Below the pieces are notes generated by a model. It was not told the DNA's origin, made no database searches, and was given only the letters and a program-made list of their open reading frames with translations. From contig JANXSD010000051.1 of NCBI GenBank assembly GCA_025352785.1, positions 1-38,964 on the forward strand: a stretch of DNA of 38,964 nt, read 5' to 3'. This DNA comes from Bacteroidota bacterium (lineage in GTDB: Bacteria > Bacteroidota > Bacteroidia > AKYH767-A > OLB10). Position numbers and translations under genes: made by a program. Of this stretch, positions 10,599 to 12,532 are shown one piece after another (the first letter of the stretch is position 1; each line of letters opens with the position of its first letter).

Positions 10599-10630
10599 AA
10601 TTCAGATCCGATAGCTATCGGATCTGAATT
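10599..10630. repeat. Perfect 32-bp palindrome, core ATCCGATAGCTATCGGAT
   Basis: A perfect palindrome centred at 10614/10615: an 18-bp core (10606-10623) flanked by AATTCAG and CTGAATT. It overlaps the last two bases of the cvpA gene (stop 10629-10631) and could end that transcript. The same 18-bp core recurs at 11241-11276 with different flanks. Confidence 0.8.
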
Positions 10631-11135
10631 AAATCCTCTTACTAAACTCCGATTTCACATCTTGTAATGCGGGAAATAAATAATGCGCCACACTTAAAAC
10701 AGGAACATATAAATGCGACTCCGATTTTGTTTTAGCACTAAGGATTCCAATGCGTGCATCAACAGGTCGTAGGAGGGAAAGCATTACGCTTATTGCTAAT
10801 CCAAATTTTACACATCCGAAAAGTGCACCCAAAACTTGATTAATCGGTGTAAGAGATGACATTTTCAATATGCCTTCTAAAAATTTCGCTAGTAAAATCA
10901 TCATGATGATTACGCCAATAAATACAAGAAAAAAAGAAATATAGGGTAAGGCTGAACTGCTTCCATGAATATAAGTGCCTACTAGATGCTCGAATAAACT
11001 AGAGAATTTAAAAGCTAGATAAATTCCAAGGATCATTCCAATGATCATTGCGATCTCGAAAATTAATCCCTTTTTCCATCCCATATATGCGCCCCACAAA
11101 AGTGGTATGGCGATTACAACGTCTAAGTAGTTCAT
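10629..11135 (-). CDS. CvpA family membrane protein
   Basis: 168 residues with four hydrophobic segments starting at MNYLDVVIAIPLLWGAYMGW. The GAYMGWKKGLIFEIAMIIGM opening and the internal SSLTPINQVLGALFGCVKFG are typical of CvpA/colicin V production proteins, inner-membrane proteins linked to envelope stress tolerance and bacteriocin export. The C-terminal 35 residues are soluble. Its stop codon lies inside a perfect palindrome. Upstream is a 337-nt repeat-containing spacer without a clear -7 box. Confidence 0.88.
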   Translation of the reverse strand: MNYLDVVIAIPLLWGAYMGWKKGLIFEIAMIIGMILGIYLAFKFSSLFEHLVGTYIHGSSSALPYISFFLVFIGVIIMMILLAKFLEGILKMSSLTPINQVLGALFGCVKFGLAISVMLSLLRPVDARIGILSAKTKSESHLYVPVLSVAHYLFPALQDVKSEFSKRI

Positions 11136-11240
11136 CTTTTTAATTCAAAATGCAGAATTCAGAATGCAGAATTATTTAATAGCTATCCGATCTAAAATTC
11201 CCTTTCAAGGGTCAAAGCTACAATAATACATTTCAATTCT

Positions 11241-11276
11241 GCATTCTACATCCGATAGCTATCGGATGTAGAATGC
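11241..11276. repeat. Perfect 36-bp palindrome, core ATCCGATAGCTATCGGAT
   Basis: A perfect palindrome with no loop, centred at 11258/11259: core 11250-11267, flanked by GCATTCTAC and GTAGAATGC. The core is identical to that at 10606-10623, but the flanks are unrelated while still perfectly complementary to each other. Confidence 0.85.
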
Positions 11277-11460
11277 AAAATTAATGTAATAAATGTTTGA
11301 GGAAACTGATAGTAATGGTTTCAGAATTACTATTTCAAGAGGTCAAAGTTATTATTTTAATATCCAATCCTGAATGATGTTCCTAGTATCTATTAATTCA
11401 TAATTCTGCTTTCTTCATTCTGTGTCCCCAATTCTTAATTTTTAATTCTTAATTACCGAC

Positions 11461-11472: not shown

Positions 11473-11853
11473 ATGTTACATCTACGAAATATTGAAGAGC
11501 TAAAAAAAGATTGGGATCTTCTTTTAGATAAAATAAATGATCATTTTGATGCCGAAGTAGATCTGCAAGGTTTGCTTTTTCTTATTGGAATACAAGAATT
11601 AGGACAGGGCACACGTAAATTTGCTAAGCACGAAAAACAGGATTTGATGCATATTGCAACATGCAAATTGTTGAGTTTGTACGGTTTCTATAATTTAGAA
11701 GGAGTGGATATAGAAGGCTGGCCACATTGGAAATTAGTTCAACAATTACCTCGTATGAACTTAGGCGAACAGGATTATCTTCTCAAACAATCCGCAATCG
11801 AATATTTCCGTGAACAAGGGTTATTTGTTTCTGAATCTTCTGACAACCACTAA
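11473..11853 (+). CDS. Conserved hypothetical protein of Bacteroidota
   Basis: 126 residues, predicted soluble and mostly helical. I recognise the type from Bacteroidota genomes by the sequence LLFLIGIQELGQGTRKFAKH, KQDLMHIATCKLLS and EGWPHWK, but I know of no function or named domain. There is no signal peptide, membrane segment or catalytic motif that I can name. The ATG is fixed by the -7 box 4 nt upstream. It is monocistronic and followed by a hairpin at 11895-11920 and then the REP/RAYT patch. Confidence 0.8.
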   Translation: MLHLRNIEELKKDWDLLLDKINDHFDAEVDLQGLLFLIGIQELGQGTRKFAKHEKQDLMHIATCKLLSLYGFYNLEGVDIEGWPHWKLVQQLPRMNLGEQDYLLKQSAIEYFREQGLFVSESSDNH

Positions 11854-11920: not shown

Positions 11921-12070
11921 TTGTATAAAAAATTGGATTACACCTGCTATCCTGAGTTTGCAACTCAGGATAATATTTTTTCTTGTAAATACATCCACCC
12001 ACTCGACTACAGCAAACGTAATGAAGTATGCTCCTTCCTTATTTCTGATTTTGTAGCCTCCATCATTCAT
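11903..12070 (-). pseudogene. 5' remnant of a REP-associated tyrosine transposase (RAYT)
   Basis: An ATG at 12070 opens a frame of 55 codons. Residues 1-32 (MNDGGYKIRNKEGAYF, then ITFAVVEWVDVFTRKN) look like the N-terminus of the Y1/RAYT transposases common in Bacteroidota, which are normally about 180 residues. After residue 32 the frame runs into the hairpin at 11948-11972 and non-homologous sequence and stops at 11903. The catalytic HxH and Tyr regions are gone. This is a truncated copy enclosed by two hairpins, a probable deletion derivative. Confidence 0.7.
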
Positions 12071-12263: not shown

Positions 12264-12288
12264 TGTCCTGAGTTTGCAACTCAGGACA
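12264..12288. repeat. Solo REP-like hairpin
   Basis: TGTCCTGAGTT-TGC-AACTCAGGACA, a perfect 11-bp stem. It has the same core as the hairpins at 11948, 12091, 12360 and 12510. Between this and copy 1 (12114-12263) I see only AACAGGATT repeats (about 12165-12201) and no gene. Confidence 0.75.
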
Positions 12289-12359
12289 TTCCAATTATCT
12301 TACAACCATTCTATATTTAGTAGACCAACATTTTTCTAGAACGTCTTTAGTTGCAAAAA

Positions 12360-12532
12360 TGCTGTCCTGAGTTTGCAACTCAGGACAGCAGTATTTTTTC
12401 TTGTAAACACATAGATCCACTATACTAAAGCAAACGTAAGGAAGTGTGCGCCCTTTTTTATTTCTGATTTTGTAGCTTCCATCATTCATTGTAAAAAGTT
12501 ATAAGGAACGATTTTAGTTGCAAACTAAAGAC
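12360..12532 (-). mobile_element. REP hairpin - RAYT fragment - REP hairpin, copy 2 (decayed)
   Basis: Hairpin A' at 12360-12390 (14-bp perfect stem TGCTGTCCTGAGTT), the RAYT 5' remnant reading down from ATG 12489, and hairpin B' at 12510-12532 (one arm mutated, GATTTTAGTT versus AACTAAAGAC). About 150 bp align with copy 1. Here the transposase remnant has a 1-nt frameshift after about codon 12 and then a stop (GAHFLTFALV, stop, WIYVFTRKK), so it is older or unselected. A half-element GTCTTTAGTTGCAAA (12343-12357) abuts hairpin A', as if one hairpin had inserted into another. Confidence 0.65.

Follow-up and report, generated by a model that had tools for sequence, protein, structure and literature searches.

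How can two palindromes that flank a single gene share an identical centre while each carries its own pair of perfectly matched outer arms? This question is raised by a short neighbourhood in the window, that is, the whole 38,964-nucleotide stretch of Bacteroidota DNA that was analysed. A sequence-only reading of the same DNA had described two perfect, loopless palindromes of 32 and 36 bp with a common core. Both palindromes are real, ATCCGATAGCTATCGGAT is indeed present in each, and the length of the first was right, but the second measures 38 bp. The outer arms had also been called unrelated to each other; both are in fact built of AATT-type words, as in the period-7 filler of the host genome. 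The features of the locus are as follows.

10599-10630, no strand: palindrome 1, perfect and loopless, 32 bp, AATTCAG-ATCCGATAGCTATCGGAT-CTGAATT
10599..10605, plus strand: left outer arm of copy 1, AATTCAG, a heptad word of the host filler
10606..10623, no strand: copy 1 of the 18-bp element, form ATCCGATAGCTATCGGAT, between the 3' end of the cvpA-like gene and the usp-like gene
10624..10630, plus strand: right outer arm of copy 1, CTGAATT, overlapping the stop codon of the cvpA-like ORF
10629..11135, minus strand: cvpA-like gene (Pfam Colicin_V), flanked by the two palindromes
11144..11176, plus strand: period-7 filler array AATTCAA AATGCAG AATTCAG AATGCAG AATT, between the two palindromes
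11178..11199, plus strand: possible decayed copy, AATAGCTATCCGATCTAAAATT, resembling the right half and right arm of copy 1
11235..11249, plus strand: left arm of copy 2, AATTCTGCATTCTAC, a perfect match from 11240
11240-11277, no strand: palindrome 2, perfect and loopless, 38 bp, TGCATTCTAC-ATCCGATAGCTATCGGAT-GTAGAATGCA
11250..11267, no strand: copy 2 of the 18-bp element, form ATCCGATAGCTATCGGAT, between divergent ORFs (10629-11135, minus strand; 11473-11853, plus strand)
11268..11282, plus strand: right arm of copy 2, GTAGAATGCAAAATT, a perfect match up to 11277

If one mismatch is allowed, the arms of palindrome 2 extend to 11235-11282, with a single mismatch retained in an arm that is otherwise 24 nt long. 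The letters of a third core, TAGCTATC, are present at 11180-11187; they look like an altered right half of copy 1 and are missed when up to two mismatches to the 12-mer are allowed. Copy 1 lies upstream of the usp-like gene. As RNA, it folds at -18.8 kcal/mol and the 48-nt stretch around copy 2 at -27.6 kcal/mol, compared with -9.1 kcal/mol for the 18-mer alone, and Rfam gave no match in the window at the gathering threshold. Long perfect hairpins are common in the host genome, with 19 in 281 kb (arms of at least 12, loops of at most 8), four of which hold the core. At 39-82 of the window, a 21-nt perfect inverted repeat with a 2-nt loop and a following T run, but without the core, has the look of an ordinary terminator.

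Taken as a whole, the best explanation, which we consider probable, is that the feature is an 18-bp palindromic element dispersed in Bacteroidota, a very small mobile hairpin that is present or absent as a unit and whose matched arms would mainly belong to the host site.

The 18-bp unit and its outer arms

The 18-mer forms a stem of seven pairs around an AGCT tetraloop (TCCCGAT-AGCT-ATCGGGA) and exists as TCCCGATAGCTATCGGGA as well as in the forms ATCC..GGAT and TTCC..GGAA, with the outer pairs AT..AT and TT..AA. Its 14-bp core, CCGATAGCTATCGG, has 13 exact copies in the 3.46-Mb host genome, where the reversed control has none; with up to two mismatches, the counts are 43 and 5. Positions 8-9 pair in 22 of 26 cases in the host's own genome against a permuted mean of 13.1 (reached in 1 of 2000 permutations), and in 37 of 38 cases in relatives against 27.4 (reached in none). 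Farther out, at positions 10-19, the paired fraction is 56/130 in 13 own copies (51.5 when permuted), 62/190 in 19 copies from relatives (54.1) and 219/890 in 89 copies from named Bacteroidota loci (242.1), the named set comprising the first 80 of at least 118 loci. At the five positions adjoining the element, pairing in the named loci even falls below chance (96/445 against 125.7), and the first base outside the 18-mer is A in 5% of 330 flanks. Since pairing is in excess at positions 8-9 and none is in excess beyond, TCCCGATAGCTATCGGGA together with the ATCC..GGAT and TTCC..GGAA forms constitutes the element. Copies with fewer than 40 nt on either side, and context duplicates, were left out of the flank, direct-repeat, offset-stem and tetranucleotide counts.

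The core occurs in 21 of the 41 genomes searched, the host included, at 0-58 copies per genome, and the reversed control was always 0. Copy number is patchy inside genera; for instance, one genus has 1, 35, 0 and 11. A GTDB scan for the 18-mer returned at least 118 stretches, where simple arithmetic predicts about 4 chance matches in 257 billion bases; among the 118 matches listed, 117 are titled with Bacteroidota taxa and one with 'uncultured bacterium'. The 18-mer is also found in 37 viral-contig stretches, which were scanned for open frames only. In viral contigs L238, L242, L239, L262 and L261 it lies in open frames and reads ..PDSYRE or ..PDSYRD. The element is undescribed in the literature searched, which left out most subscription journals and covered Bacteroidetes palindromic repeats, small dispersed repeats, Flavo-1, the GUCCY hairpin, GIY-YIG with tRNA or YhbQ, and Rickettsia elements; an earlier account may exist elsewhere. 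Papers that print part of its sequence concern, by title, unrelated subjects. The GUCCY-hairpin motif is named in the accessible portion of PMC2864571.

The sequence-only reading had proposed that a process copying the flank in inverted orientation, or strong selection on stem length, seems needed. Beyond the 18-mer, however, flank pairing is no better than chance in all three sets (13, 19 and 89 copies), an outcome that the reading itself had named as a refutation. Fixed-position flank complementarity was accordingly rejected as a general rule, and inverted copying of flanks is unsupported and plays no part in the spread of the element. Certain host copies do have truly matched arms: at no more than one mismatch, 4 of 27 have inverted runs of at least 9 beyond the 14-mer, compared with 0.27 expected from cross-paired flanks. 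These four are both window copies, L001 and L047, the latter two with T-rich, terminator-like ends. When stems were sought at offsets of up to 4 nt, an inverted score of at least 12 was reached in 13 of 165 copies (3.9 expected), and direct similarity was found in 21 (3.6 expected).

In 47 kb of host intergenic DNA, AATT follows AATT at a distance of 7 in 64 cases against 18.0 ± 4.8 expected, and at a distance of 14 in 46 against 16.9. Single filler words are at or slightly above the Markov model, and the filler is therefore shown by its period rather than by single words. Degenerate period-7 AATT arrays enrich this intergenic DNA, for example at 11144-11176 and 11424-11454 of the window. By eye, other genomes have filler words such as CAAATTAG, AATTTTG, CACTCAC and CGCAAAG, and L354 has inverted head-to-head filler without the 18-mer.

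The outer arms seem to be part of the landing site and not of the element. Most simply, the element would have inserted into, or persisted in, the middle of inverted filler or of hairpins that already existed. In the window, both copies may have landed in AATTNNN filler, close to or exactly at the midpoint between inverted filler words, in which case the matched arms would be the stem of the host site. No empty allele of this locus came to light: seven same-family cvpA orthologs have no core within 200 nt on the 3' side or 420 nt on the 5' side (one 3' side being incomplete) and, apart from a single AATTCAG in L344, lack the arm words as well, these relatives being too distant to reveal the ancestral site. 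A scan of genome contigs with the cvpA-like protein gave no relative.

A somewhat unlikely course of events is that the element inserted into imperfect inverted AATT filler and that template switching at the hairpin perfected the arms later. Such quasi-palindrome correction is established in other bacteria, and applying it here amounts to the template-switch idea of the sequence-only reading, moved to after insertion. The host-genome excess of long matched arms and the one mismatch that copy 2 keeps would fit with it, and several other own copies with AATT on both sides and unmatched spacers (judged by eye) could be precursors. The same chance-level pairing beyond the 18-mer in the three sets argues against its being general, and a pre-existing stem is enough at L001 and L047, since both, out of the four copies with long arms, resemble terminators and end in T-rich sequence. 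Correction could act on the same sites as a pre-existing stem and is a fair rival. Our best reading of the matched arms is that they are mainly pre-existing stems with swapped tips, or the outcome of later quasi-palindrome correction.

Presence and absence of the 18-mer as a unit at orthologous loci

Orthologous sites with and without the element support a mobile copy, a possibility that the sequence-only reading had set aside. The 18-mer is either there in full or missing at four such loci: two in Flavobacterium, one in the aroA gene of Lacibacter and one in a regulator gene of Aequorivita. Where it is there, it takes the place of 3-5 nt of the target or, in one case, brings a 3-bp duplication. 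The first Flavobacterium locus is intergenic; five of 11 genomes could be aligned, two filled and three empty, the six further genomes being unalignable at the site. The filled sites belong to F. pectinovorum and F. bizetiae, the latter reading ..TAGC[18]TTGCGG.., where the nearest empty relative has TAGC-GAACC-TTGCGG, so that GAACC has given way to the 18-mer.

The second Flavobacterium locus, 5' of a peptidase-like gene, was searched for in 121 genomes, of which 88 had a match, and the best 30 loci were aligned. Six of these 30 are filled like the query (L268, L269, L272, L276, L286 and L288, with one edge letter differing in L276 and L286). NGCC occupies the slot in 12 (L270, L271, L274, L277, L279, L280, L284, L287, L289, L290, L292 and L294), CCTTTGA or a near form in five, and a different palindrome, CCCCGAAGCTTCGGGA, in L291. 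Among the rest, L273, L275 and L293 have other short text, and L295, L296 and L297 are unalignable at the slot. A related shorter palindrome, CCCGAAGCTTCGGG, occurs in L291 and L136, and in L291 it sits in the same orthologous slot as the 18-mer. Because several lineages are filled at this slot, exchange between arrays fits as well as repeated insertion.

Insertion relative to empty relatives was seen in two coding frames only. The aroA gene of Lacibacter cauensis has the 18-mer in place of CAC within an older 14-bp tandem repeat, with the frame kept (compared with L322, L323 and L324); EPSP synthase chain 7tm4, the sole chain aligned, is missing seven residues at this place. In the response-regulator gene of Aequorivita aquimaris, the 18-mer comes with a TCG duplication and is likewise in frame (compared with L303 and L307); in other species, this slot holds other text. 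Other short inserts, such as GACTCCGCTCA in aroA, occupy the coding slots in L325, L326 and L330 (aroA) and in L304, L305 and L313 (regulator), which indicates that these slots tolerate filler.

Could the 18-mer be a mere passenger of gene conversion, spread by recombination between filler arrays with no mobilising enzyme? We think this unlikely, even though NGCC, CCTTTGA, the 18-mer and another palindrome take turns at the slot of the second Flavobacterium locus, and even though the 14-bp tandem repeat of Lacibacter aroA resembles an array of intergenic type in which two further Lacibacter genomes (L335 and L336) have the core. Gene conversion leaves unexplained both the replacement of 3-5 nt in the loops of tRNA-gene copies, described below, and the recurrence across the phylum of a single 18-mer whose flanks are unrelated.

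Host sites, junctions and candidate enzymes

The mobile hairpin that we favour is repeatedly found in copies of tRNA genes. Once context duplicates were removed and six tandem copies in L181 counted as two, 192 distinct copies remained, four of them short of flank; in 15 of the 188 usable copies, from 11 loci, the joined flanks match a tRNA gene from the same set across the junction. Flanks re-paired between loci gave 0-5 such matches (mean 1.95, 20 shuffles), and random 18-nt cuts 1-5 of 188. Three nucleotides are missing at the junction in seven copies, four in three and five in five, and, judged by eye, it is the D, T or variable loop, or its border, that has lost these letters. Ten of the 11 loci contain the matching tRNA gene themselves; L182 matches a tRNA of L176. 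Copies in L166 and second copies in L152 and L182, which are tRNA-like by eye only, were left out of the 15. The intact tRNA-Trp gene of L181 comes after six tandem 66-bp repeats of its first part, every one with an 18-mer. L176 (Gillisia limnaea) has three tRNA-Asn-like copies whose variable loop holds the 18-mer; the intact gene comes next, then a GIY-YIG gene and another fragment with the 18-mer. ARAGORN calls two of the three copies tRNAs. Overall, 11 copies lie less than 100 nt from a tRNA, compared with 4.0 for random places in the same loci.

Open reading frames hold few of the copies. When loci shorter than 4 kb were dropped, 108 loci with 115 copies were kept (25 copies lacking an ORF on one side), and 104 of the 115 lie outside ORFs of at least 100 aa, where crude ORF calls predict about 27; nine lie between divergent genes. 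Open frames contain 15 of 165 copies in the named and viral loci, including L067, L070, L074, L131, L161 and L174. The RNase HII frame of L067 has about 28 extra residues relative to 3o3g, those of the 18-mer among them, and in the IspG-like frame of L174 the 18-mer falls outside the stretches aligned to 3noy.

Some copies sit within larger hairpins. In L128 and L148 the 18-mer forms the loop of a hairpin that looks like a terminator, and in L157 the surrounding hairpin, whose loop it forms, is similar to the element, one nested in the other. A T run occurs within 22 nt of 34 of 100 non-ORF copies, where randomly chosen positions outside ORFs in those loci would give 36.7; a general terminator role was rejected on this ground, while single copies (L047, L128 and L148) do look like terminators. 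It is quite improbable that the 18-mer is the tip of functional RNA or DNA hairpins whose arms are kept complementary by selection. The covariation of outer pairs 8-9 and the terminator-like copies in L128 and L148 are in keeping with such selection. It is contradicted by the unexceptional T runs, by flank complementarity that is not general, by a copy number that ranges from 0 to 35 inside one genus, and by the diversity of settings: tRNA-gene copies, in-frame positions in genes and spaces between divergent genes (9/115).

The 18-mer also meets a known RNA motif. Flavo-1 (RF01705) hits were found in three of 18 named loci scanned at the gathering threshold: in L163 the 18-mer is inside the hit, in L092 the hit ends directly before the 18-mer and in L113 it ends 21 nt before. 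Flavo-1 is similar to the 18-mer in being dispersed in Bacteroidetes, with the hit in L163 holding a copy, but differs from it in sequence. In the accessible part of a transcriptome study (PMC9723704), Flavo-1 hits are reported sense and antisense alike, many of them outside new transcribed regions. Flavo-1 may be in part a dispersed DNA repeat, which fits what is available of that report (PMC9723704), and the overlaps suggest that it belongs with the 18-mer to the same world of dispersed repeats.

The junctions carry a further signature. Flanking direct repeats of at least 3 bp occur in 27 of 141 copies, with about 4.5 expected; repeats of 3, 4 and 5 bp number 12, 9 and 2, against 3.6, 0.67 and 0.21, and four copies have repeats of at least 8 bp. 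Among the 27 copies of the host genome, eight have direct repeats of at least 3 outside the 18-mer, compared with 1.56 expected. The repeat sizes of 3-5 are the same as the losses in tRNA copies. The direct repeat at aroA is already present in the empty allele, so that direct-repeat counts overstate duplication. Target-site duplication as a general signature is weakened, given that the long repeat in aroA predates the insertion. No direct repeat of any kind accompanies 87 of the 141 copies.

How might such a unit move? At 18 bp, it would seem too short for ordinary paired-end transposition. In the mechanism that we propose, the hairpin would insert at a staggered cut of about 3-5 nt. Trimming of the overhangs would give a loss and filling them a short direct repeat, so that both the 3-5 bp repeats and the 3-5 nt losses could arise from one type of cut. 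Copies would then survive where the hairpin does little harm, and imperfect stems may perhaps be perfected later by quasi-palindrome correction. It counts against this explanation that most copies have neither a direct repeat nor a recognisable stem.

The best candidate for the enzyme would be, by position only, a small GIY-YIG nuclease. This is the commonest protein family encoded within 1 kb of copies (5 loci), the next being a broad signalling cluster (4). In a more sensitive search of the collected loci, a core lay 8-99 nt away from 7 of the 9 GIY-YIG open frames, with distances measured to stop-to-stop frames; as most of these loci were chosen for the core, it is mainly the short distance that is informative. 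The core is 11-44 nt from the 3' end of the gene in L037, L152, L176 and L182, and on its 5' side in L077, L104 and L140, where the start codon is farther than the frame distance. Six of the seven core-adjoining loci are tRNA-type loci, and in L152, L176 and L182 the gene has hairpin-carrying tRNA-like pieces on both sides. Among 30 GIY-YIG loci not picked for the core, one has a core, with cores counted regardless of ORF; the strict motif filter recognised 3 of the 30, and some are long UvrC-like frames. GIY-YIG and core counts show no correlation inside the family (rho -0.03, n = 24) and reach rho 0.31 (p 0.051) across 41 genomes. The link between GIY-YIG genes and the element is a lead, not a result. 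A doubtful extension of it is structure-directed loop swapping, by which an 18-nt hairpin would exchange 3-5 nt loops at hairpin tips cut by small GIY-YIG nucleases; if this were true, each insertion would yield a longer palindrome with locus-specific matched arms.

The other enzyme considered is a RAYT, a Y1 transposase that would mobilise the 18-mer as a REP element. The 18-mer is a small palindrome of high copy number, and core counts correlate with PF01797 counts, weakly across 41 genomes (rho 0.37, p 0.018) and with rho 0.57 (p 0.003) in 24 genomes of the family. Against this stand the absence of the core from all seven PF01797 loci of the host genome, the lack of a common tetranucleotide tag of the GTAG/CGTC type beside the 18-mer (the commonest are GAGC and CGAA, 10 each of 330 flanks), and genome G037, which has 58 copies but no PF01797 matches other than two distant ones (E 5e-14 and 7e-4). 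A neighbour search with three seed proteins and ORFs of at least 100 aa found Y1-like ORFs near two loci only, 718 and 739 nt away, and the Y1 gene in L021 adjoins a different repeat, TGTCCTGAGTTTGCAACTCAGGACA. A RAYT is thus disfavoured as the mobiliser by PF01797 loci, genome counts and copy neighbours alike, and we regard it as highly improbable. The second palindrome family, TGTCCTGAGTTTGCAACTCAGGACA with near forms, occurs at 11948-11972, 12264-12288 and 12355-12395 of the window and at 835-1246 of L021. Elsewhere in the host genome, five copies of it with a spacing of about 92-99 bp lie beside a Y1 transposase gene (PF01797), and the two look like a REP/RAYT pair.

Likeness to known dispersed repeats

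Few proposed mobile DNAs are as small as this 18-bp unit, which appears and disappears as a block and is widespread in a phylum; ordinary transposition offers no explanation for it. A mechanism becomes directly testable through the exchange of 3-5 nt, the hairpin-tip sites and the repeated occurrence in tRNA-gene copies, of which some adjoin a nuclease gene. There is also a caution for annotation: extra residues of the type ..PIAIG.. or ..PDSYR.. in Bacteroidota proteins can be an inserted repeat, as can hairpins in tRNA-like sequences and beside Flavo-1 hits.

Several known systems invite comparison. Cyanobacterial small dispersed repeats, as described by Elhai and colleagues in 2008, are reportedly about 20 nt long, dispersed, present or absent as a block and often found inside other repeats. 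The 18-mer is similar in being a short unit with block presence or absence at four orthologous loci; it differs in belonging to another phylum, in replacing 3-5 nt and in often lying in RNA-gene loops, and the likeness is one of description. A MITE was rejected, because the 18-mer has no inner part, its junctions lose 3-5 nt or gain 3, and its direct repeats vary in length. HIP1, as far as the accessible part of PMC4390886 describes it, is an 8-bp cyanobacterial palindrome modelled as biased point change with a methyltransferase. Like the 18-mer, it is an over-represented palindrome in many members of one phylum, whereas the 18-mer comes and goes as an 18-bp block and not by point change. The REP/RAYT elements outlined in the available portion of PMC3733652 are likewise small palindromes in many copies, mostly between genes; in contrast, the 18-mer is a perfect palindrome of 18 bp with no common tag, and no adjacent RAYT was found. 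Rickettsia palindromic elements, in what could be consulted of PMC10969869, are about 150 bp long, contain a conserved peptide ORF and are inserted in frame in unrelated genes. The 18-mer is palindromic too and is found in frame in unrelated genes, but it is 18 bp long and lies mostly outside ORFs, compared with the ORF-containing units of about 150 bp in Rickettsia. Taken together, our best reading is that the 18-mer probably works like cyanobacterial small dispersed repeats and Rickettsia palindromic elements.
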